The notes below the pieces were generated by a model, which was given only the letters and a program-made list of their open reading frames with translations, made no database searches and had not been told where the DNA came from. A stretch of 64,000 nucleotides of DNA, taken from contig NC_060108.1 of the NCBI RefSeq assembly GCF_021155765.1, forward strand, positions 11,071,425 through 11,135,424, read 5' to 3'. Shown here piece by piece: positions 7,401 through 63,597 of the stretch. Each line of letters opens with the position of its first letter. Position 1 is the first letter of the stretch. The DNA comes from Diprion similis (Eukaryota; Arthropoda; Insecta; Hymenoptera; Diprionidae). Position numbers and translations under genes: made by a program.

Positions 7401-7893
7401 ATGTATGTGAAAATACATAAATTTATGATATCTCTAAGATTCTAAAATTTTTCTATACGAAACTGTGACGTTTATTGTTCGAAAAAAACATGAAACTGGT
7501 CGTGTTTCCCTTTATTTTCATACTTCAATTTGGTGCGAAACAGGTTCACTGCAATACGACACGAGTTTCTACATAGATAATGCAAAACTTATTGTGAACA
7601 TCGCAGAATCCAAACTAATTACCACGACAGCAAAAAACGATAACTTTTCACCGCCAATTTCAGAGAACCAGGACTACAGTTCAGATTCGGATATCTCGTT
7701 GCTCTTGACGGATTCCTCATTGTGTTCATCAAGCTGCACCTGTTCAGAGTGCTGCACAACCGATTCCTCGACGTGCAGCTGCTCGGATTGCTGCTCCGAC
7801 GGAAGAAGCAGCTCAACTTCATATTCCGCAGGTTCGTCGACTACGGATTCGTCGTCAGAATCGAGCAGCGAAAGCTCGCCGTCCTCTCCGTAA
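4402..7893 (+). CDS. Unrecognised protein, basic N-terminus and Cys/Ser-rich C-terminus
   Basis: Three coding exons join with matching phases: 4402-4759 (donor GTAAGA, phase 1), 4995-5114 (acceptor TATTACAG, donor GTAAGT, phase 1) and 7664-7893 (acceptor AATTTCAG, stop TAA). They encode 235 residues. Residues 1-119 are Lys/Glu-rich and look disordered. Residues 121-159 hold a charged helix, KEQKKKERETERLAKAM, followed by FSKKFVSAAKDLGIIE. The last 75 residues are an acidic Ser/Cys stretch containing CTCSECC and CSCSDCC, which could bind metal or form disulfides; there is no signal peptide. A MITE sits in the second intron at 6665-7256. AATAAA lies near 8342. The family is not recognised. The phase agreement of all three exons is the main reason to believe the model; a reading through the first donor to 4953 would give an intron-retention variant. 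Confidence 0.6.
5220..5560. repeat. Degenerate short-period repeat in an intron
   Basis: Variants of TTGAAATC, TGAAATCCC and TGAAGCC recur roughly every 10-25 bases across about 340 bp, so that one minus-strand frame shows repeated Phe-Lys-x-Phe units. The repeat is too diverged to give a clean unit. The rest of the intron, 5561-6664, is AT-rich without further features apart from a perfect TGACGTCA at 6392-6399. Confidence 0.5.
6665..7256. mobile_element. Foldback-like MITE with tandem-repeat arms, 592 bp
   Basis: The left end CGTCGGGTTAGTGGAATAAA is the reverse complement of the right end, which finishes CCACTAACCCGACG. Both ends are flanked by ATTT (6661-6664 and 7257-7260), a candidate 4-bp target duplication. 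The right arm is built of about six tandem units of 28-29 bp starting near 7067, each with a core like CGTGTC-C-TTTTT and ending AAAA-CGA; the left arm carries fewer, reverse-complement copies. The AT-rich centre is also self-complementary (6820-6895 against 6965-7040). No transposase is encoded. Terminal arms of short tandem repeats recall Drosophila Foldback elements, but relatedness is not shown. Confidence 0.8.
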
Positions 7894-8340
7894 TCCGATG
7901 ATCGTATCGAGTTAAATTCTCAAATTGTTCTCTACAAATTCGGCATTGAATGTCGATTTTGCCCTGATTTCGAGAGCACTTAATGAGAATTTTGAATTTT
8001 TGAATTTTTTGATGTTTCGATAATTGAAAATTTGTCATAGTACCAATTTTATGATGGTCATTGATCAGTGTATTTATTATAATCATCTAATTTCCATTCC
8101 CTGTGATTGTTGAAGAAAAGAAATTTGAATGGAAAATATGTAATCGAATTAATACAACTTATTGGTGATATTTCACCCTGTTAAAATGTAATCGAACTTC
8201 ATATATTTGTAAGGATTTTTGTATCGAATGAAATGTGATCTATTTCGTGTTATAATGTGTGATCTAACGATCGATTATTAAGCTTGTTTAATTGTCTGCT
8301 GTAAATCATAGTATATTATTATTTATTAATCAGAGGTAAT

Positions 8341-12900: not shown

Positions 12901-15529
12901 GAATTGACAATTAGAGAACAGTTTTTTCAGCCATAACAGTGGCGCATATGATAATTCTGCAGGTTGATCCAAACTCCTTGCCAACTCAGCCAAAAAACTG
13001 TGGCTAGAGTTACAGTATCTTGTTGATATAGCCGTAAACAAATGTTTTTTTCTCGATAATTACCACGTTTTTATCTTCTACGCTTAATGAGAAGAATCAA
13101 ATGAAACAACCGTTTTATCACATTTTTTACCACAGAAAATTTCTTCGAATAAATCTCTACTCAAGTTCTGGCATTAATTACTGGCTGGAATTGGCTGGAA
13201 AAAATAGTTTCCGATCATCCAACAAATATGAAGTGTTCAGATAATGGCCAAAGCTTTCGATTTACTTTCCTTCTATATCTCTGCCGATCAATGGACAAGA
13301 ACAAAGATATAAAACCGTTTTTTTTTTACTTCGTTCGTTGCGACGACATCATTGCATATCCAGGCGTACCTACTGTTACCGCTATTTCAAGACAAAACAT
13401 ACGAGTATAGCATAAAAATATTTTGAATGATCAAAGTACGGCGATAAATTTTTTTTTTTTTTTTTTTCCTAGTATTTAACGGTGCCGATATTTCTTTTTT
13501 ATACATACATTTCTTTTTCACAGACATCGGTAAGATAGAATAATAAACATATCGCCAAGTTTTTGCCGCAGAATGAAGAAGCTCGTTATAAACAATCATT
13601 GCTGGAATATATTCCATTGCGTGCTCGTGGTCTGTCTGGATTTTATCGTTTTCCCCCTTTTTTCACTTTACGCTTGCTGGATATCATGACGTCACGATGG
13701 CTGAAAATTTCATTTCACAACTGATGATGTATTGACAAAAGGCCGTTCGGTCCGTTTGCGCTTCGAGACTGAGAATCGATGTCGTTTAATAATCGCGTGC
13801 GTCAAACGCACACAGTCCGACGTAAAACGTATAAGCATGACGCACATGCCACCGATTCTTCCTCACTTGGAAAATTGGTTCATTTACCTTGCATTGTATC
13901 ACCTCGTGTTTCATTTTGCCATATTAAACGATCTATATCTAGTTTTCCGAAGAAGTAAATCTGGGGATTTTTTTAGGGATCTTGACAATTTTAATGCTCA
14001 TATTTGAAATTGTTTAAAAACATGAATATTTCATATTCAGATGAGATATTCACAAAACTGTTTCCGAAGATTAATCTTCACTAATGAATGATGCAAATCG
14101 AAGGTTTTCTAATGAGAAATACGTCGCAAATAATTCGGAAACATGTAAATTAAATCGCATGGAGGTACGTGATCTGCAATGGATTAACTGATACGTGCAA
14201 AACAGGTGAACGGAAACTGACAGGTGTCAGTGCGTTTGAAATTGTTTTGTGCATAATTTTTCGGTGAATCGTTTGGAAACTATATGTTTGAGTTACATTT
14301 ACGATAAATTAAACAGACACAATTGATGTATCTATACTTAATTTCTAATAATACCTACAAATTTTATCCAGAAAGAAAGTACGTTGTAATGAGGCTATTT
14401 TTACACCCAAAGTTTGGATTCATGAATCAGGTACAATTATATGTCTGGTTCAGCTATATAATTTCAGATCCATTTCAGGATTCAGGATGAGAACAAATTA
14501 TTTACGAGTAGGGTATAAATTATATTTCTCTTTAGAAGAATAAAATAAGAAGAGCAGAAAATTTCATACATATTGCTTACATGTATAATTGTTTATAGTA
14601 GTTCGCAGAATTGTTGTCGCACAAAAACTAATCATAAGAAATCATTCGATACTATAATTTATATGGAAGAATATTTTTTCGCGAAGTCTGAAATGAGATT
14701 AAACTTGTTTTTGGTGTAATTACGTCAGTTGGGCACGTGGGTAATTGTTACGGTTATTAATTCACGAATTTCATTTCCGATGTCACTATATGTTCAACTT
14801 TACAGAAAGACATCTTTGTATTAAGATAATTTTATTCTGAAAAAATTATACAAACTGTGGAGAAAATTCTGGTTTTACTAATATGATTTTTACAAACAAA
14901 ACATAATTATTCATTGACAAATACGGGTTCCTGTAACCGGAACAAAAATATTTTATTTCCGATTCGAGTATAACTTTTGAAAAGGAAGTAGTAATGTATT
15001 CAAAACTTATTTTGAATCCAAACCATAAAGACATTTCTGAAAATTTTACGACACAAAAAAAGGTTCAAGCATGCAAATTCTCTGACACTTCTATCGATAA
15101 TAGTCTGGCAAACGTGGCTTATGGATCTTATGTAGATGATATGAATGTTTTAGGTTAAGCATAACTCGAGCAGTTTATATGTAAGTCATCTGGACTGGTT
15201 TGTAAACTTTTATCGTCAACTGACTACCACGAGTCATCAAAACAACATAACTTTATTTCATTCAGTCAGTTGGCACCCCTGACTAGCGAACACAAATATT
15301 GTCGTGGTACGATCTCGCTGACCAATGAAGTTGAATTGTATTAATTATTCAGCGCATGCGCGTCACTCAGTGTCCTAAGTTTACCGTTTTTCTCTCTACA
15401 TAACACCTGCAGAAAATACGACTATTCCCAAATTTGAAATTTCTTGTAGAAATGTCGCCCAAATTCGCCTACACACATAATTGATTTGGAAAGACTGATA
15501 AAAATAAATATATGTACTTCTTGTTGCAG
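9944..15529 (+). other. Probable intron and upstream region of the kinase gene
   Basis: No certain coding exon. The candidate small exon 10195/10200-10237 is described with the promoter. A GC-richer block at about 11020-11560 has open frames on both strands but no recognisable domain and may be regulatory. A TGACGTCA lies at 13687-13694 and an NRF1-like GCGCATGCGC near 15352, followed by TCAGTG, which could mark a second start site close to the kinase exon. Confidence 0.35.
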
Positions 15530-16693
15530 ATGAAGCTTCACGAAAAAAAAGAGTCGGGCATTCACCGCGTGCAGGAAGTCGCCCTCGAAGACTTGGACCT
15601 CACGAAGGAGTATAACGTGGAGAAGACGTTGGGTGAGGGCAGCTTCGCGAAGGTGCTTCTGGCAAGGCACAAGCGAACGCAAACCCGGGTGGTGCTAAAA
15701 GCTGTGCACCAGGAGTTAACGTCGGAGAAGGACTTCTACAGGGAATTCCACTATTCGTACCACCTGAGTCCACACCCGAACATCCTGAGCTCATACGCAG
15801 TGGCCTTCAGGGCGGAAAACTGCTACGTCTTCGCCCAGGAGTACGCGCCGTTTGGTGACCTCTCGGGGAACGTCAAGGCTGGAGGGCTGTCCGAGGATGT
15901 GAGCAAAAGAATCGGAGGTCAGCTGGCCTCGGCGCTTGATTTTTTACACTCCAAACAGCTGGCACACCGCGACGTGAAGCTGGAGAACGTCCTGGTCTTC
16001 ACGCACGACATGTCGAAGATAAAACTCTGCGACTTTGGGTGCACCAAGAAGGAGGGAACCCTGGTGAACAGGATACGATGCACGTGGGTGCCGTTTCTAC
16101 CACCGGAAGTCTACGAGGTGATAAAGAACGAGCGATACACCTGCAAGCGTAGCGCCGACTGCTGGCAGTTTGGGATCGTGCTCTTCGTCTGCCTGACCGG
16201 AAACCCTCCCTGGCAGAGCGCTGACCTGATCCAGGACCCCGACTACTCGGCCTTCCAACGTTGGCTCAAGCGAAGGACGACCAAGATCCCCGCCATGTTC
16301 AGGCGGTTCACGCCCCGGTTGCTCCGGTACTTTAGGCGGACATTCGAACACAAGCCAGAGAAGCGAGCGAACATCACCGAGATCAACAAGTACCTGAAGG
16401 ACTCCTGGTGCGTCAACAAACTCAGCCATAGCGCCACCTCCACCTCCGTCGACGTCAGCGAAAGCCTCGCGAGGCGAGGCGACAGTCTGCTTTACCTGGA
16501 CACGCTCGTCGACGACAAAAACAACGTCGACGAGAACAAGAACAAACTGAAGAAGCTGCTCAACAGCTACGGCCTCGAGACCACCGTTGACCAGAAGGTC
16601 GTTACCAAACGGATCTGGGAATGGGTCATGCAGTGCGACTCCAACATCGGTGAGCCCGGGCTGATCGGCGGACTGAACTCCGAGCCCATGTGA
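15530..16693 (+). CDS. mnp: Serine/threonine kinase, SBK1 / meng-po family
   Basis: A single exon encodes 387 residues. The glycine loop GEGSFAKV is at 35-42, the ATP lysine in VVLK at 57, the catalytic loop HRDVKLEN at 146-153 and DFG at 168-170. PPEV at 191-194 replaces the usual APE motif, and CWQFGIVLFVCLTGNPPW at 211-228 is typical of the SBK family, known in flies as meng-po. The exon starts right after a splice acceptor (TTGTTGCAG|ATGAAG), so this ATG is chosen; an in-frame ATG at 15512 would only be used in unspliced RNA. The exon is much GC-richer than its surroundings. The stop is TGA at 16691-16693, but the same frame stays open for 65 more coding-like codons, and a consensus donor GTGAGT (16690-16695) overlaps the stop. 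The natural C-terminus is therefore uncertain. Family assignment is from remembered motifs, not a search. Confidence 0.88.
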   Translation: MKLHEKKESGIHRVQEVALEDLDLTKEYNVEKTLGEGSFAKVLLARHKRTQTRVVLKAVHQELTSEKDFYREFHYSYHLSPHPNILSSYAVAFRAENCYVFAQEYAPFGDLSGNVKAGGLSEDVSKRIGGQLASALDFLHSKQLAHRDVKLENVLVFTHDMSKIKLCDFGCTKKEGTLVNRIRCTWVPFLPPEVYEVIKNERYTCKRSADCWQFGIVLFVCLTGNPPWQSADLIQDPDYSAFQRWLKRRTTKIPAMFRRFTPRLLRYFRRTFEHKPEKRANITEINKYLKDSWCVNKLSHSATSTSVDVSESLARRGDSLLYLDTLVDDKNNVDENKNKLKKLLNSYGLETTVDQKVVTKRIWEWVMQCDSNIGEPGLIGGLNSEPM

Positions 16694-16891
16694 GTGCTGG
16701 CTAGGCCATCGAGATCGGTCAGCGAACCCAGCCTCAGGGTTGACGCGAAGGTACCTGTGGTCGAGTCGATTCGAGACATGCACGAATGGCAGAGATTCGT
16801 TGCTGCCAGTCTGGGCAGAGCGAAGATCAAGTGCCAGAAGTCCGTCGAGGAGTATCAGAGCACAATTGCTCCAGTGAATTCGTCGCGATAG
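16694..16891 (+). CDS. mnp: In-frame C-terminal extension of the kinase behind TGA
   Basis: Directly after the TGA, in the same frame, 65 codons run to a TAG at 16889-16891. The codons keep the G/C-ending bias of the kinase exon, and the peptide (RSVSEPSLRVDAKVPVVES, then RDMHEWQRFVAASLGRAK) reads like protein. It could be reached by stop-codon readthrough, or by removal of a 48-base intron from GTGAGT at 16690 to CTCAG at 16737, which keeps the frame and deletes the stop. A sequencing error or a new mutation in this individual would also explain it. Confidence 0.5.
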   Translation: MLARPSRSVSEPSLRVDAKVPVVESIRDMHEWQRFVAASLGRAKIKCQKSVEEYQSTIAPVNSSR

Positions 16892-17216
16892 AACTTGGTA
16901 CAGATGTAGTATTTAACCGCTGTCAATTATGCGTGGTAGGGGACGAGTTAGTAGTCTATTACTACAGCTTGATAGTTACGATCGATTAGAATTGCTGGGT
17001 TGGCGAACGTGCCGCGAGTGATTCGAGGTGATCCGAATTGGGTCGAACCATGAGTGGCACGTGGGATACGAGTGACACGCTCAAGTATGAGTGAATTTTC
17101 GATTTTCCGGCTTCTGGACGAAATGAAATCATGACTAAACTGTTCTTGCCATCATTCCGTTTAGCATGAAAAAACACTCCATAGCCGGTGAGGTATGGAA
17201 ATAATCTTATCTTCGA

Positions 17217-17222
17217 AATAAA
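17217..17222 (+). terminator. Poly(A) signal after the kinase
   Basis: AATAAA at 17217-17222 is about 330 bases beyond the TAG at 16889. Further AATAAA hexamers (near 17477, 17797 and 19521) allow longer 3' UTRs; the AT-rich stretch up to 19.5 kb holds several TGTATATA Pumilio-like sites (for example near 18531). Confidence 0.45.
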
Positions 17223-18955
17223 ATCGCTAGTGTGTTAACGGCAGCCATATTGTTTCATCTATGAGCTTCGAAATTCATTGATAAAAGATTTGAGAAACAT
17301 TGCTTTTCATCTTGTTAGCCAAATTTTTACCAAACGCTGAATATTCGAACCTGATAAATTCAAGGTAATGTCAGTAATTATGATGTGCCACCATTTTGTA
17401 ATTACGATTGATGAGTTAACGGGAGTTTTTTGGTAGCTGCGGTCGTTCGCCAAACTATGCATCTTTGAAAAACGAAATAAAAACGTAGATGCGTGAATGA
17501 CGGTTTGATGATACGGGTAGAATTTCACCAAAGTTCAATTATACTTTTAAAATTATTGTACATAGATATTCTGAACTTGGTTAACTCTACGTCGGATGAT
17601 GATGTCATGTCACGCGTGATTCGTCTTGTAACTCCGCGATGAGAATGATAATTACTTTGAATGAAATGATGGGAAAATTCGCAGTTTTCCTCATGTATGT
17701 TTTACTTCCTCGGCCGAATGAACAAACAAGTATTTTTGTCAATGTATTAAAAGTCCGGCGTCTAAGGAGCGCTATCCATGTCGGACTGATAGAGACAATA
17801 AATAACATTTCCATGAAATTTACTTGCTAAGATGATAATAGATATTAATGATAACATTGATAGCCGTCTTGATATAATATAACATTAACAAATATAGTGA
17901 CAGCAATGATAATAATCATCGCGTTAGTGTACAGACATATTTGTTGTAGTAGCGATATCCTATTAGAAATCGTTTAATCATCAACAATCGGAGTTTTGAC
18001 AAATAGAGCAACAATTTTCGACATGCAAATGCAAATGCATCATGGAGTGAAAAATTAAAGAAGATCAATATATTTTCCATTTGATTTTTTTATAAAAAAT
18101 ATACCCTCTCAAATTGACGGTGACTCATACACGTACATGACTCTAAAACTAATACAGTACACGATGATTTAGAAGCCATGATACACGTTAACCACTGAAA
18201 ACAGAGTATTACTATATAACTATGCGAGTAGCGCATTCATATAGGAAAAGTGTCTAATAGAGCCAAATGTGGCAGAAAAAGGAGCCAAAAAAAAATTATT
18301 TGGTAACTGCATCAAGTGCGATAGATTGAGGCGTGCATTTATAGCTAAAAAAAAAAAAATGGCGATTTCCTCGCCTTATATATTCTTGTAGTAATTTACG
18401 ATGCCCTTAGAAATTAGGCAATATATATATATAACACATGTATATTCATGTACGATATATACAGCATGTATACATATATGTATAGAATATAGACATATGC
18501 AATAGCGTGTATATTACATATTTATATACATGTATATAAATGATATATGTTTAGGAGTAATATAAGTTTACAAAGTGATGTACATATTTAATTCTGAACT
18601 ATAAATTATTGATACGCGAGTGTATGAATACGTACACGTATATAAAGACAGTGATTAATGAAATTCAGGAACCTTATCGCATTTATTGATGAAAATTTGA
18701 TGTGCATATGTATAGATGCAATAGTCAAACGTTAGATAACGAGTTATCTTCACGGAAAAAAACGTAAGCTTCAATAATGTCCTCGGACTATTTTTATATA
18801 CGTATATCGTATTTCATGCAGTATATATGTGAAGTGTGTGAGATATGCGTACCTATTAATTTCTTTCTTCGGTCGAGTGAAGTTGAATTCTGGTACACTT
18901 GCGGATTGAATGAGATTCTAATTACGTATTTTAATGAGACTAGCTGATAGCGGAA

Positions 18956-43544: not shown

Positions 43545-45575
43545 GAGAAAAAAAAAGAAAATTTAATTTCGGTGACTTTTTTTTAATCACTGTGACATTT
43601 CCTTTGTCAACTCTAGTAACCAAAAAATTTTTATGTTCCTTTAGATAAACTCCGGCTTGTTTGAATTTATTAATTTCTATTTTAGATTTAACCAAGCGGG
43701 GATTTATCTGATGGAACTTAAAAAAATGTTGGTTACTAGAGCTGACAAAGGAAATGTCACAGTAATTATGAATTTGACTGGTTATAAAGAAAAAAGCTTA
43801 ACTATTCTAAGTGACACCGAAATATAAACCTATGGCAACAAAAAATTTTTATAAATTCATTAACTGCTAAAAATTTGGAAACACATATAACTTTCTTCCT
43901 GCGAAAATTTATTTTTGACCTAAAATCCACAAAGAAAATGTGCCTCTAAGGCCCATTGTTTCAATCCTAAATAAAAAGTGGCGATTAATCAAACCACACA
44001 CTAATGTAAATAAGAAAGAATTTGTTGAAACCGTAAAACTTTGCTTAGAGTCATGTTTGTTTGCTTATGGAAACCAATTTTACAAAAAAATCTATGGAGT
44101 AGCTATGGGCTCGCTCATTGATCCAGTTGTAACAAATATTGTACTTGAACACCTAGAACAAAAAGTGATTAAACAATTACCGTTTAAATTACCATTTTTC
44201 TTTCGTTACGTGGATGATATCATTACGTGTATTCATGTGGATCAAGTACAATATTTGGTAGATAATTTAAAAAATTTTCAATCTAGGATAAAATTTACCT
44301 GTGAATTTGAAAGAAATGGCAAAATTAAACAAAATTCTGGATTGGTATCACGAAGAAACATGGTCAGCTAGTAGAACACGAAAAGACAGTTGCCATAGCC
44401 TTATAATACGATCGTTGTCTAAGGATTTCACATTCACAATCGTGAGTAAAAAATTAAAAATTAGTGAATAAGATCTTATTAAAAAATGGATATCCTCTTC
44501 AATTTGTTTGGGATATAAGGAAACGTAGAATCCACAAACTCCATAATACAATACCATGGGATGAGAACAATAACTGTGAAAAAATTACATGCTCGATCCC
44601 TTATATTGAAGGCCTATCTCGACCTGATATTAAAAAATTTCTAAAACAGGAACGAGTTAAAATTTCGTTTAAAACTTGTGATACCATAAACAGGCTTTTT
44701 ACCTCTCTGAAAACAAAATCTCCTGTCAAAGATCAAGTTAATACTGTATACAAAATTGATTGCTTAGATTGTAACAAAACCTATATTCGTCAGTCATCAC
44801 AATATCTAAAAAACTAATTTCAAAACATAAATCTAATATTAGATGCCATGGCCTTGATAGTTGTGCTTTAGCATCTCATTCTATAGAACTAAGGCATCAT
44901 TTTGATTTCGATAACCCAAAAGTCATAACATCCAAACCTGATTGGTACAAACGCAATATTAAAGAAATACTAATAAAGTCAATCGACGAACAGACAGATG
45001 AAATTTAAGTCATCTATATTTCGATATTTTTTAACTTTTAAATGTTGCGCACCAATATATATAACAGATGTTTGACATGCTCTTTCTCCGACAATTGACT
45101 ATCGATTCAAATTTCGATATTGGTAATTAGATCGCAATCAATTCTCTTGTCATTTCCAACATGGCGTTTGAATAACATTTAAGCCGAAAAGGTCGCCATT
45201 TAATTGCAAGTAATCTTGTTAACATCGCTATGATATAATTTAAATTTCATTTCAAAACATCTTTCAACCTTTTCAAACATGTTTGTATTATAATTTTGTA
45301 ATATTTAATCAAAGTCGTAAACTATATTTGTTTTATGCAATTTTAACCTCAAGAACAGGTTGTCCTCAATCAATTGACAGCTGTTTCGTCTTTAAATTAT
45401 ATGTATCAAATAAAACTATAGACAGATTCTTAATTAGCAGATTATTGTCCAAAGTAATTAAGAAACGAATATTTAATGAAACAATTCTGTATCTTCCAGC
45501 CTGAAGATGGTCGACGGGGCCCGGCCGAAACGTCGGTTTTACATTTTGTAAAAATAAATTTTTGACCTTCATTCG
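43545..45575 (+). mobile_element. Broken Penelope-like retroelement
   Basis: Plus-strand fragments in order: LVTRADKGNVTVIM (43729-43770), PKIHKENVPLRPIVS (43919-43963), the RT core with YGVAMGS and the catalytic FRYVDD (44010-44340), a linker, and a GIY-YIG-type end, VYKIDCLDCNKTYI (44749-44790), whose frame continues after a shift as SKHKSN to a stop at 45006-45008. Reverse transcriptase followed by GIY-YIG endonuclease defines endonuclease-bearing Penelope-like elements. Stops, frameshifts and a deletion between motifs make it dead. Near the 3' end (45500-45535) lies CTGAAGA ... CCGAAACGTCGG, resembling a hammerhead-ribozyme core of the kind reported in these elements. A reversed copy of its 5' coding part sits at 43550-43690. 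Confidence 0.85.
43550..43690 (-). pseudogene. Inverted 5' fragment of the Penelope-like element
   Basis: On the minus strand this reads FLVTRVDKGNVTVI, the same RT N-terminal motif that occurs on the plus strand at 43729-43770. The two copies meet head to head at about 43690 and align from CAAGC-GG-TTTATCT through GTCACAGT. Confidence 0.8.
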
Positions 45576-51313: not shown

Positions 51314-54300
51314 ATGATGGCTTCTTTCGAGACACTAAGGCACGATTACAACGTAAGTAGGCCGCTTTTTTAGTTAGGAATAAGACACAAGCAGAAGGCA
51401 ACCTTGTTTACTAATACATAACCTAACTCAATTGAATCTAGTGCAATTTGAATTGATTTCTAGATTGAAGAAGCTTTACTAATTTAATTCAAGTTAGCAC
51501 AATTTAGCCAAGGCAACATTGATGATTTTTCAAGTTTTCTTCACCTTTGCTTCGCAATCTAATTCATTCCGATGATTTGTTCGTCTCAACATGTATTGTC
51601 ATCGATCGATGATGACCAGCTATCGTGTTCATTCATGCCATGTAGTGTGGCGCAGTTTGGCTCTGTAAATTTGAACTAAAGATCAGTTAAAACTTAAGAT
51701 CAGGTGTTTAATTCTGTAACTCAGGCCTTACAAGTATAGAAACGTAAGAGAAAAAGGCTACGCAGCTGCTGTGAAAAAGAAGAGCATGTGAATAGTTGCA
51801 GAGATGAATAACGACGAGCATTGAAAATAGTCAAATTGGTTGCTCGTAAAATTTTTTCTCCGATTCGATTAGCATTTAGGTTGATTTTGTAATATTATTA
51901 ATGATTCTATTCATAAAAGTTTCTTCAAGAATGTTACGGCTCAATTTTCTTCTCATTTATCTTTTGAATTGCATTTTCAAATATTTATATCCTTTCATGC
52001 ACCCCGTGCTTCATTAATTTTATCGATAACTAAACACTTCCAGTAAAAGAAAAATGTGCTTAAAAAAGTTCATGCTTAAAGATTAAAATTCAATTTTATG
52101 TTCCAGAACCACCTCGAAAAATGCTTCAAGTTGTCAGACTTATCCGGATTCCAAAAAAAATGTCTGGAAATGAACACAAATGTCTCGAATAGAAAGTCGA
52201 TCGTTGATCAAGCGCTGCGAGACACGCTACTTACTGTATTGCTGGATGATTCTTCCGGAAATGTACAACATCTTGAATCTTACATAACATTTTGTATCGA
52301 GTTATGTAGGAAAGATTTAACAACAGCCAGCATGCCGGTCATATTGCTCGGTGATATATTTGACTGCATGACGTTGGACCGATGTGAGAAGTTATTCACA
52401 TTTGTTGAGAACAACGTTGTTGTGTGGAAAGAAGAGATATTTTTCAGTGCCTGCAAAAATAATTTACTTAGAATGTGCAACGATCTGCTTAGAAGACTTT
52501 CTCGCTCTCAACAAACTGTATTTTGTGGAAGGATTCTTCTATTTCTTGCCAAATTTTTCCCATTCTCTGAGAGGTCAGGGTTGAATATAGTTAGTGAATT
52601 CAATCTCGAAAATCACACCGAATTCGGCAATGAGAAATCAGAGAAAGAAGTGCTTGAGCAGATCGTGGAAGATGGCGACAAAACGGAGAACAAAATTCCA
52701 ATCGATTACAATCTGTACCGAAAATTCTGGGCACTGCAAGACTTTTTCAGAAATCCTAATCAGTGCTACAATAAAATGCATTGGAAGGTTTTCTCTGCTG
52801 TAAATACCAATTTATACTATTATTCAAATTTAAATTTCCATTTAGATTATTTTATAATTGTTTTCATCAATGTCATTAATTGATTACAGCATACGTCGCA
52901 TGTCTTGTCGGCGTTCACTTCTTTCAAATTAGAAGAGCAGCGTAGCTGTCCCACAAAATGTACAAAGATGGACACTTCCTCGGAGGAAAACTACAAGGAA
53001 ACTCACTACTTCGCAAAGTACCTGACTAATCAAAAGCTGTTGGAGTTGCAGTTGTCAGATTCAAACTTTCGGAGATACGTATTACTCCAGTTCCTGATAC
53101 TCTTTCAGTACCTCAACAGCGCCGTAAAATTCAAAGCGTAGGTTCATATTCCACTAAATTCATTATAAAAATCAAATTGTATATAATTTGACTTTATCTT
53201 CGGAACAACGCTCATTCTACATGTCAAGTCAGTCATAATTTCACCACTCAATGCGACATTGCCACCTCAACGTGTTAAAAAGTAGACAGTTAGTTGTTTG
53301 CTCTACTCTTCTGTTTTTTTTTTTTTTTTATTTATGAATTGATGAACACCAAAAAATATAGCTAGTGTTTGCTTGTATCCTTGCATTTGTGTTACGTAAA
53401 TTTAGGCTTGCAAACAAATGTTACTGATGAGTGTTAAACTAGCTGTTAGTCTCTTGAGACCTTCCGTCACAGCGTACAGAATATTTCAATATGCCGGTGG
53501 AGCTTTTAGCTACATTTCAAGTAGAGTTATGCAGGTTAAAAAAACACATTGGGTCCAAACCAGGCCAACGTTACCACCAAGCATTATGTGGTGATTAATT
53601 CATGTCGATGTTTGTATTTTTATGCGAATTTAATCAGTTATTTTCCTGCTTTTGCATCGATAGTAATTTCATTTCTGACCTCAATCTTTTTATGATCACT
53701 GTCTTCTATTAGCGAAACACACGAGCTGAAACCTGATCAAGTCGAATGGGTCAAGACAACAACAGACCAAGTGTATTTGTTATTGTCTGAAACGCCTCCA
53801 AACGGATCTGGCTTTGCGGAAACTGTAAAAAACATTTTAAAACGAGAAGAACACTGGAATGCGTGGAAGAATCATGGATGTCCACCGTTTAAGAGGCCTG
53901 CTCTTGAGTCTAATTCTGAGGGAGAAGAACCGAGGAAACAAAAAAGACGGATCGGCGATGTAATCCGAGCTGCCGAAGATGAAAAAAAGTATCATTTAGG
54001 AAAGTAAGTACCTACTATTTGAAATTTCATTTGAAAATTCACTTTCTCATCTTGATTACACATATTTTGACTCATTTTCATGATTGTAATGTCTTTGAGA
54101 AATGATTCGAATCAAAAGTTTTGACCGTTACTTACTCTTTTTTTGAATTTCTAATCTATAGCTGCATCATTTTCTCCCAAAGCTTGATCATATAACATAA
54201 ATTTCATTGCTACGACTTCACTGTTTCAGTCCTGAGTTGACAAAGTTATGGAATTTGTGCCCTAACAATTTGGAGGCTTGTAAATCAATGGATAGAGACT

Positions 54301-55230
54301 TCCTGCCTTCCTTGGAGACTTATTTTGCAGAAGCTATCGAGCAATTAGATCCAGCAGCGATGGTCGAAGATGAATATAAGTATGCATAACGGAATATCTC
54401 ATGATCCTTACCCATTTTTCGTCGAGAGAACGTTTTATATTCGTTTTTCCCTTTGCAGGAAAGTCAATGATGGCAACTTTGGTTGGAGAGCGCTGCGGCT
54501 ACTTGCTAGGCGGAGTCCCCATTTTTTTGTACACGGGAATAACCCCATTAACAAATTACCTGAGTATTTGGAAGCTATGATAAAAAAAATCGCCAAAGAT
54601 CGACCGGTAATATTCACGCTCTTTTAACTAACTGGTAAAACGTACACTAATAGAAATTTAAATAATTTTTGAACAAAGCTTAATCTTCAAAAATATTCAT
54701 CTCAATTATTGTGAAATGAACATTTAATCACAGTCTCTTTCCTTTTTTCACTTTATTTTCTTAGCAAACGCAGTCGGATATAAAAACAGAATCCGAAGAA
54801 ATTCCGACAGACGGAAACGAAGCCGAATTCAACGAGGACGTACTTAAACAAGAGACCGAACAAGTTGAGGTTGAGGCATCAGCAACCAAGTTCAGTAAAT
54901 TCAATAAAGTGACAGCCGATATTGTTGCGAAACTGTCAGATATATTAAAAGGGAACTGGAAAGATCTGGCAGCGAAATTCGGATATCATGCCGACGAAGT
55001 GAGCATTTTGGCATAAATTTGATATTGACAAAATTCAGAGACGCAAACAATTTTCGAATTTTCCTTTATTACAGATCGCATTCTTTCAGAAGAAACGAAC
55101 ACAGTACGAACAGTGTAAAAGCATGCTAGAAATCTGGGCCGAAGAAGACGAGGACGCATCAATCGAAAATTTGGCTTACATTCTCGAAGGACTGGGCTTT
55201 ACAGAGGCAGTTGCCGTATTGAAGAGCTAA
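51314..55230 (+). CDS. Thoc1: THO complex subunit 1 (Thoc1/Hpr1)
   Basis: Eight exons encode 652 residues (human about 657): 51314-51352, 52107-52799, 52890-53137, 53713-54003, 54230-54379, 54459-54606, 54765-54998 and 55075-55230; every junction is GT-AG and in phase. Family motifs are [64 protein letters not shown] and [16 protein letters not shown] basic KQKRR near residue 415 is a likely nuclear signal. The C-terminus (about 570-650, with [12 protein letters not shown] and [10 protein letters not shown]) is the death domain. The protein is part of THO within TREX, which couples transcription to mRNA export and, in flies, helps export piRNA precursors. The first exon encodes only 13 residues; ATG 51314 is chosen because its exon ends in GTAAGT in frame. 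The gene appears intact. Confidence 0.96.
51353..52106 (+). other. Thoc1: First intron of Thoc1
   Basis: AT-rich, 754 bases, donor GTAAGT and acceptor TATGTTCCAG. Nothing further was seen. Confidence 0.85.
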
Positions 55231-59621: not shown

Positions 59622-62600
59622 TTAATCTTCGATCAGTTTATTTAAGTGTCTATTGTAATCTTCTTCGGACAATTCTACGTCGTCATCTTCTATAATGTCA
59701 ATTTCATCTTCGTGATCTACGTCCCTCCGACGTCTAGCCGACTGCGTTGTCACCTCTATGCACAATAGAGCGAATTTACTGTCGCACGAATATCGGATTT
59801 GCTCCAGAAGCCGATCTCCGTTTAATGGAGAACCCAATCCGTAACGATCTGAGCTACTGGAATGCCAAGCATCGCAGTAGGTGTCCATAGCCCTTTCGCC
59901 ATACTTGTGCGATCCGTGCCAAGCGACTTTTTCAGGCCTAGAAAAATTACCAGTTTATTACTTTTCATCACCTATTATGACGTGTAAGCAAAGTGTTGAT
60001 TTCGGTGAAAATCACTTTTCCTAATTTCAATGAATCGCTACGTTTTCGAACACTTATAATTTTTTTGTTCTTCGCAATTTTTTATCGAATTTTTCTTTCA
60101 AAGCTTTTTTATTCGGCTGCCAAGTCCTATTAGTTTCAAATTTTTCACTCGATCATTTTCGAGATCATCATAAAAATGAAGAAAACTCTGACATAAAGAG
60201 TTGAATATAGCAAAAACCAATCCGATTCCAGTCGAAAGTTTTAGAATGTTGATACCTGTGTGAAATGATTAACAAATAATTATTAACCCCAGGCACTTTC
60301 GAAAACAACAACTGCAGTACCATAAAATCATATCAGCGTACCATGAGAAATCTGTTAGGATATTTTTTCCATTGAAGCTATAGATTCTCGGGCTCTGCGA
60401 AAAATAAGCACCGTCGCCATTGAACATTTCCTTCCAAGAATTGAACAGAACGTCTCCCTGAAATTGTAATCATAATTATTCATCAATTATTGATATGCTC
60501 GCATAAGTTTCTGGTTATGGAGCCGCTTTTGACCAATATTCATACCTTGATGTTCACAATCGGCAGATCTCGGTCGGCGAATCTGACGATGCTGTCCACA
60601 TTTTGTACTCTTGAGCTCAAAAACGCCCGGAAAGTACTGGCTCTGAATCCAGCTCGCCTGGATTGTCGATAGCAGGAATAATCTGCGCCCCGAATTCCAT
60701 GCATGTCACCGGTAATCGGCTCGTTCAGCGCAGCCATTCGCAGCTAAAAAAAACAAATCTTTCAATTTTTTGGGTCATTTTTTTTTTTTTTAGAAGGACA
60801 ATGTTGTGAGATTGAATTGTCGTTGATATAATTATCAATCCTATTACTATATTGCGAATCTGGAAATTGTGGCCACGATTCATCAAGTCCGGAATAATTA
60901 ATTTTTCTGATTCATTCTTATGCAAATATTGTGATATACGTTTAGATTAAACCTCTTGAGACGTAGTGTTTTTCTTTTTTATCGTATCATATCGAATTCC
61001 CATTAAATTTTCTTTTTTTCTCATTTGTCTACTACGAAAATTTCTCAGATAAGTCGAAATAAGCTTTGCTAATTTCGAAGTTATTTTTTTTTACCAGCTT
61101 GGTTTTGTTTTTTTCTTTGGAAAATTTATTGAAAACTGTCGTGTATGCAACAAGAATAAATGTACTGAAATTTTATTTCAACATAATTTCGAAGAATTTC
61201 TTGAACGGTTTGAAGATTTTTGATTTCTCAACGATTTTTTATATCCGTTTTCGTTGGACGATGCAAATTTTCGATTCGATATGAAAAAGAAACATGACTG
61301 TCTATCAATGATACGATTTATCGTGACATTAGAATTGATATTATAATTGAATTCAGCCTTACCATTTTCGGGTACCACTGAGCAGCGGACGGAGGAAATA
61401 AATATGTTTGCGTTATTCAATATAGCCTTCTGACGTCATGTTATTTCCTCAGTTATTAATAAACAAAATTATTGATTGTATTGTTGAACAACTTACCGCT
61501 GTACCGTCTGCTTTCAACGGGATTTGATTCACCAGGTTCGACACCTCGAAAGGTGGTTTTAACGGGGGTGGAGCCGTCGTTGGTGGGGCTGGAGTTGTGA
61601 TTGGTAGGAGCGATCCGAGCTTGAAAATGTAACAACATATATTTCACGTAGAAATACAATATACAGAGTGAATTCCTAAAGACTGCATGGTCCCTCGTCT
61701 GTTGAAATTTAGTGCGCATGCGCCACAAGACGGAAGCAACTGTTCGCCAGGGCCGCCAACCGTTGTAAATTTAGACGACAGATCGCCACGACGTATGAAT
61801 GTAGAGTAATGCTCATTAATCCGTTCCCAGTGGCTCATTATTTGTTTGGAATCAAAACTGGAACACGTTTCTTCTCCAAGGAAATTTTGTATTACAGAAG
61901 AAACAAAAGATATGTTAATTATGGACACATAAAATTTCTCTAGAGAGTAAGTTTGTTTTAATATTGATTCTAAAAAAATAGTGAGACACTGGGAACTACT
62001 CACTAATGGTTATTACTCTAGACTTAAAAATTTTTACAGTTGTCGGTGCCAGCTGTGCTCAATTTGTAATAGTCAAAATTTATGAGGTTAGAGACAGTTG
62101 ATCATTCTGTGAAATAGTAGCCCTTAGAATATTAGCAAACGGCGAACCATACAGTCGTCAGAAATTCACTCTGTAACCAACTTAGGTAAGAAACTTTGGG
62201 GGATTATAGTGAAATCTTTGATGTGTTCAATTGGATGAGGTTTGGCCCTGCATAATCAATGTTTCATGTTGTTTTTGACTGGTATACTCACAGCGATGTA
62301 CTGCCATCCGTTATTTACCCTGACAAGTAAAGCTTCTTCATCAATTATGTACGCCAATGTACCGACTTGACTGACTGCTGACATCTGTGGAAGTAACACG
62401 CATGGGTATAAATTGGGGATACACTTACTGTACGTATTTGTGAGTAGATATTTATAAATCACGATAATTTCAACGTCATCCAAATTATTTCGCAGTTCTC
62501 TCACCCTTATCCAAATTTACACAAGAACCCTGGGAAAATTTTCAGTATACAGACGATAATTTTTACTGCTTAGGGATTAATGCGGTTTTAAATTAGTATC

Positions 62601-63597
62601 GGTACCTTGGTCATAGCTTCAGTATTTTGGAATGTCACAGCACCAGGAACAATTTTTGTCGTACTTTCCGGTGGACCTCGCGTTGACACGGTACCGGATC
62701 CTGAAAACCAAAAACATGTATTCAAGTTTCGGTATTCGAGTGTGGTAACACTTGCGATTGCGTAATAGTCCAACTAAATCCACAGGGTATTTGGTTTTCG
62801 TGAGGTATGAATTGAAGATATCGTCGAATAAGATAAGTAGTTCGGTTTTATCGTATCTCTGGATCCTATTCTAGAGAAAGTGAATATCTGATGGAGTTTG
62901 GATGGACTCAAAGAATTGTCCAATACTAATTTTCTCTTTCATTGCACACCAAATGCCATCTACTTGCAATCACTTAAATACTTTACCGTAGTGTTCTTTG
63001 AGCTCCTTGAGCTGTTTAAGCTCTCGGAGAGCCTTTATCTCGTCTAAACTGCTTCTCGGTCCTTGAAATGTAGCATGAAACAGTGATGTTATGGTTTAGA
63101 GTGGCTTAAATCGAAGCGTATACGCCAAATGGCTTCGTTCGTCGATAGATTTTGATGAAAGAAGAACCAATGAAAAATGATGCCGCACGTTAAAATGTCA
63201 CACAAAAATTAGCTAACCACATCAACATGTCAAATGACATCACTTTTTAGAGCCAATACTGTTACATCAGTTTCTCCTGAACAAAGAAAAATTTTCTCAA
63301 AAAATGAGACACTCCTCAGAATTTTGTGGATGTACCTTGTCTAGATCCGTAACGGCTGTCTCCTCTGTCCATAAAGATATGACCTCGCCCAATGCCAGGT
63401 TCTCCCTTCTGGCCGATGAAAGATAATCCGGGCGTACCTGGGATACCTGGAGGTCCTGGTGGCCCAGGAACCGGAATGTATTTTCCTAGCGACGGCGGAC
63501 CTGCGGGACCAGGTGGCCCTGGAGGACCCCGCTGACCATCGCGACCTGGCTGACCAGGGGTCCCGGGTGTTCCGGCATCTCCTTTGTCTCCCTTGAC
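59622..63597 (-). CDS. Mp: Collagen XV/XVIII (multiplexin), C-terminal part with endostatin
   Basis: Partial: the 5' part lies beyond the window. Eight in-phase minus-strand exons, 63597-63336, 63061-62987, 62700-62606, 62384-62292, 61619-61497, 60743-60546, 60457-60342 and 59937-59622, encode the last 425 residues. In order: interrupted Gly-X-Y repeats ([17 protein letters not shown] and others); a charged linker ([15 protein letters not shown]); the NC1 trimerisation domain ([11 protein letters not shown] ... [20 protein letters not shown]); a Pro/Thr hinge open to proteases; and endostatin from [21 protein letters not shown] through [22 protein letters not shown] and VAWHGS to FALLCIEV, with the four family cysteines (YSCY, TYCDAW, YSCDS, LLCI). 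An acidic tail of about 35 residues follows RRRR. The protein belongs to basement membrane; in flies Mp acts in heart and motor-axon guidance. A MITE lies in the intron between 62292 and 61619. Confidence 0.95.
61664..62173. mobile_element. MITE in a multiplexin intron, 510 bp
   Basis: The left end CAGAGTGAATTCCTAAAGAC and the reverse complement of the right end, CAGAGTGAATTTCTGACGAC, match over about 33 bases. TA flanks both ends (61662-61663, 62174-62175). A minus-strand open frame of 119 codons lies mostly inside it and is not a gene. It is inserted in the intron between the NC1 and hinge exons of Mp. Confidence 0.8.

Follow-up and report, generated by a model that had tools for sequence, protein, structure and literature searches.

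The reading frame of a protein kinase exon in the window (the whole 64-kb stretch of Diprion similis DNA analysed here) stays open for 65 codons beyond its TGA stop. This extension is matched once in the genome, and it carries a moderate codon-usage signal confined to the kinase frame. Readthrough of the TGA is our leading explanation of the extension; we hold it tentatively, at a nearly even chance, and it is favoured by published estimates for insects rather than by the sequence's own features. The kinase exon and its flanks comprise the following features.

15530..16690 (+): protein kinase coding exon of 387 codons, with its ATG at the first base of the exon (PF00069, E 1.3e-40)
end at 15529 (+), directly 5' of the kinase exon: acceptor-like CTTGTTGCAG, read from the sequence
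16691..16693 (+): first in-frame stop, TGA, next base G, in the context ...GAG CCC ATG TGA GTG CTG...
16694..16888 (+): candidate readthrough extension of 65 codons, characterised by codon-usage tests and matched once in the 269-Mb assembly
16889..16891 (+): second in-frame stop, TAG, read from the sequence
17217..17222 (+): first downstream AATAAA, a possible polyadenylation signal, found by motif scan

The first-pass annotation had closed the kinase frame with the TGA at 16691-16693 and counted 65 further in-frame codons. Re-reading confirmed both, with the added codons at 16694-16888. Its description of the frame as open to 16889 was right about the open frame and one base too long, because the last sense base is 16888 and the TAG occupies 16889-16891; its coordinates for the feature are otherwise correct to within one base.

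The kinase has a single full-length match in the 269-Mb assembly. The next best match is 31% identical and lies at a locus (L002) that we take to encode an MSK/JIL-1-like kinase. Searching Pfam with the kinase returned general kinase families only, and no SBK chain was present among the best 60 of its 712 PDB matches. The name used here, a meng-po-type (SBK1/CG11221), memory-linked kinase, was taken from the first-pass annotation and is presumed. Searches of viral contigs and prokaryote genome contigs yielded no relatives of the kinase. Acceptor-like letters precede the ATG, and more coding exons upstream of 15530 are possible. Just 3' of the kinase, at 17092-17262, lies a dispersed repeat with at least 9 other matches in the genome, 69-82% identical.

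The extension was matched once genome-wide, with no paralogous tail. Pfam, the sequences of the PDB, viral contigs and the rest of its own genome yielded no relatives of it, the Pfam and PDB matches being at chance level only. We scored its codon usage with a model trained on the kinase itself, a small set of 387 codons. The extension scored -1.4 bits, compared with a mean of -36 (sd 10.6) for shuffles of the same bases, and 16 of 20,000 shuffles reached its score. Read in frames 1 and 2, this stretch scored -38 and -32 and holds one and two stops, respectively; the three antisense frames scored from -14 to -72, some of them containing stops, which lower the score. In sliding windows, frame 0 was preferred as far as the TAG and not beyond. 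The z value of the extension (3.3) is below the 4.1 to 6.6 of eight held-out kinase segments of 65 codons and resembles the 3.1-3.9 of four frames of THOC1 in the window. The coding signal of the extension is therefore real-looking yet moderate, and its excess over chance is suggestive, not decisive.

A chance-open frame has to be added to the three explanations offered in the first pass: readthrough and a recent nonsense mutation remain from that list, and the intron is disfavoured, as described below. By the chance explanation, the extension is 3' UTR of a GC-rich tract that lacks in-frame stops by luck. Stop-free shuffles numbered 1162 of 20,000 in one run and 3322 of 60,000 (about 5.5%) in another, and GC content declines gradually downstream, from 0.564 to 0.475 to 0.369 in successive stretches. 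The window has 269 open frames of 60 codons or more; ordered by z, the extension is only the 18th of them, and ordered by score per codon it is the 5th. The z values in this ranking are rough because each rests on 200 shuffles per frame; the 17 frames with a higher z are the kinase, two of THOC1, five antisense over the kinase exon and nine without an identified gene. A 271-codon antisense open frame (16097-16912, -), which probably results from the GC richness of third codon positions, also spans the kinase tail and the extension. However, just 11 of the 3322 open shuffles equalled the codon score of the extension, and the signal is restricted to frame 0 and stops at the TAG. Six chaperonin last exons in this genome meet another stop in frame 0, 1, 3, 10, 23 and 26 codons past their own, so that 65 open codons appear long by comparison with these few loci, which all end in TAA and are unmatched for GC. 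Taken together, we consider luck a rather unlikely source of the open frame.

Other frames and domains were recorded in the window. The open frame 7644-7898 (+) has the second-highest codon score in the window (z 7.0); the frame 7438-7893, which overlaps it and is rich in serine and cysteine, gave no match in Pfam. A possible reverse transcriptase remnant lies at 43919-44817 (+), where 43919-44371 has a PF00078 match (E 3e-4) that falls short of the curated cut-off, and 44458-44817 (+) had no Pfam match. Collagen and endostatin domains (PF01391, PF06482) occur at 59622-63597 (-), presumably in a collagen XV/XVIII gene.

The third position is G or C in 43 of the 65 codons of the extension, compared with 309 of all 387 kinase codons (Fisher p=0.023) and 83 of the last 97 (p=0.006); in the next 198 nt after the extension, GC at the three positions is 0.44-0.52, below the GC3 of the extension. 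The extension had been said to share the GC-ending codon bias of the kinase, which holds in so far as its GC3 exceeds that of the following 198 nt, but not at the level of the kinase. A GC3 below that of the kinase is expected once constraint is lost, as it would be after a recent truncation. By that explanation the ancestral protein extended as far as the TAG, a nonsense substitution at 16691-16693 has been fixed or is segregating in this lineage, and the extension is decaying former coding sequence in the 3' UTR. A coding-like frame behind a stop whose context is other than the favoured leaky one would fit such a history, and recent nonsense is a recognised false positive for readthrough in the available text of PMC5100048. 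Yet the same text estimates that D. melanogaster has 17 recent nonsense substitutions, far fewer than the roughly 900 readthrough stops of the fly, and the 65 codons have accumulated no additional in-frame stop. We regard truncation as unlikely on balance, though it deserves serious weight. The lower GC3 also fits readthrough, since readthrough regions are described as being under weaker constraint (PMC5100048, available text).

Removal of the TGA by splicing had been proposed as well, through the following segment.

16690..16737 (+): proposed 48-nt frame-neutral intron, GTGAGT to CTCAG, judged unlikely

The letters are as the first pass reported them, with GTGAGT at 16690, CTCAG ending at 16737 and a length of 48 nt, divisible by three. 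GTGAGT starts at the last base of the ATG codon and overlaps the TGA; excision of the 48 nt would join AT to G GTT GAC (NSEPM-VDAKV). The usual donor consensus is GTRAGT, which the candidate donor matches well; this motif occurs once in the 1362-nt exon (at 16690) and 28 times in the 64 kb on this strand. Alternative splicing from this donor, either to 16737 with the frame kept or to an acceptor farther downstream, would take out the stop.

For comparison we used 35 introns of the genome. Five, of 79, 90, 158, 226 and 575 nt, were read exactly in the gene for THO complex subunit 1 (THOC1), which lies at 52089-55230 (+) in the window; its first large exon matches PDB 7znk (E 2e-62), and its last exon, from about 55003, was assigned by eye. 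For the other 30, lengths of 81 to 2933 nt were estimated as the gaps that separate adjacent exon matches of chaperonin genes (39 matches). Five chaperonin matches, of which four contain stops, include 84-135 excess bases that are probably introns, and these were left uncounted. Internal stops are present in 11 chaperonin matches, namely those four and seven with stops near the match end, which for that reason conceal no evident short intron.

Against the minimum of 79 nt among the 35 introns, the candidate of 48 nt is short. Its GC content is 0.62, compared with 0.18-0.38 in the five THOC1 introns, and the proportion of T before its AG is 0.11, compared with 0.39-0.72. It contains no YTNAY, whereas each of the five THOC1 introns has such motifs in the 60 nt next to its acceptor. 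At the 11 YAG sites listed between 16700 and 16891, T makes up at most one third of the preceding bases, and a distant acceptor would not account for the coding-like signal. Length, composition, acceptor and the absent branch-point-like motif thus disfavour the 48-nt intron, and splicing from 16690 to either kind of acceptor is improbable. Exitrons, as described in the available text of PMC4484396 and PMC10985678, resemble the segment: they lie within coding exons, are frame-neutral and GC-rich, and have splice-like ends. They are described there, however, as stop-free and as nearer to exons in size than 48 nt suggests, and with the TGA at 16691 inside the segment we rejected an exitron.

An assembly or base-calling error that produced the TGA is very improbable. 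One substitution would suffice; however, the 269-Mb assembly consists of 60 contigs, the listed ones being 11 to 28 Mb long, which suggests long reads, and the change requires no indel and sits in no homopolymer.

Readthrough is tentatively preferred over these explanations on account of its frequency in insects. In the available text of PMC5100048, readthrough stops are estimated at more than 600 in Anopheles and 900 in Drosophila, and the readthrough genes of insects are said to prefer TGA. Bumblebees have 851 readthrough candidates, of which at least 306 were judged functional (PMC7826183, available text). If the stop is leaky, the TGA would be a genuine stop at which the kinase usually ends (...NSEPM), and a fraction of ribosomes would decode it with a near-cognate tRNA and continue for 65 codons to the TAG. 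The product would be a minor isoform with a basic tail beginning VLARPSRSVSEPSLRVDAKVPVVES... and carrying RSVSEP. That ribosomes pass the TGA, and that the tail has a role, we infer.

The surroundings of the stop were examined for known marks of leakiness. The stop is TGA, and the next base is G, not the favoured C, which is a tendency of the group and not obligatory. CTAG is absent, and the 8-mer CAGCAGCA was not found in 16400-17000. Five RNA folds around the stop did not exceed shuffles in stability (z 0.08 to 0.65). Among published readthrough candidates, 9% have RNA structure and 23% the 8-mer (PMC5100048, available text). Readthrough gains nothing from the TGA-G context, the ordinary RNA folds or the weaker codon bias. 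Decoding of the TGA as selenocysteine was rejected as a separate candidate. Rfam includes SECIS models; searched with 16600-18600, it gave six matches (E up to 1), each under its gathering score and none a SECIS, and a selenocysteine codon is therefore unsupported. Titles and the starts of abstracts in the literature contained nothing reporting readthrough of meng-po/CG11221/SBK1. CG11221 is absent from the main text of PMC5100048.

The extension contains one short motif that could bear on a function of the tail.

16712..16729 (+): RSVSEP motif in the extension, a single occurrence of the RSx[ST]xP pattern

RSx[ST]xP is the mode-1 14-3-3 pattern. R[SFYW]x[ST]xP has zero occurrences in the 387-aa kinase, and 235 of 20,000 shuffled extensions contain RSx[ST]xP. 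RSVSEP is a lead only, because such a motif arises in that many shuffles and was noticed after the fact. A possible role of the tail would be phosphorylation-dependent 14-3-3 binding, the presumed fly relative of the kinase being PKA-regulated. In fly Meng-Po, S334 is required for phosphorylation by PKA, and S334A has reduced kinase activity (PMC5825208, available text). It is conceivable, as a long shot, that regulated readthrough of a meng-po-type memory kinase yields a tail with a phospho-dependent 14-3-3 site (RSVSEP), and that leakiness of the stop adjusts where a kinase acting with PKA in long-term memory is located, or how stable it is.

Should readthrough occur, the kinase would gain one 14-3-3-like motif, RSVSEP, with the tail. 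If the extension is conserved, a signalling kinase tied to memory formation in flies would join the readthrough genes, together with a testable C-terminal module. If it is not conserved, the frame would be an ordinary truncated C-terminus or a chance frame, and the locus would illustrate that a single-genome reading can mimic recoding.

Compared with known systems, the kinase shares with Meng-Po/CG11221 (SBK1-type, PMC5825208), whose name it bears from the first-pass annotation, the Ser/Thr kinase domain; the available text of that paper mentions neither readthrough nor a C-terminal isoform. Relative to the readthrough genes of insects (Jungreis 2016, PMC5100048; Dunn 2013, PMC3840789; bumblebees, PMC7826183), the locus, read in one genome, differs in having TGA-G in place of the favoured TGA-C and in lacking notable RNA structure and CAGCAGCA. 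With these genes it has in common a TGA, a long in-frame second ORF, a codon usage that looks moderately coding-like, and a second stop.
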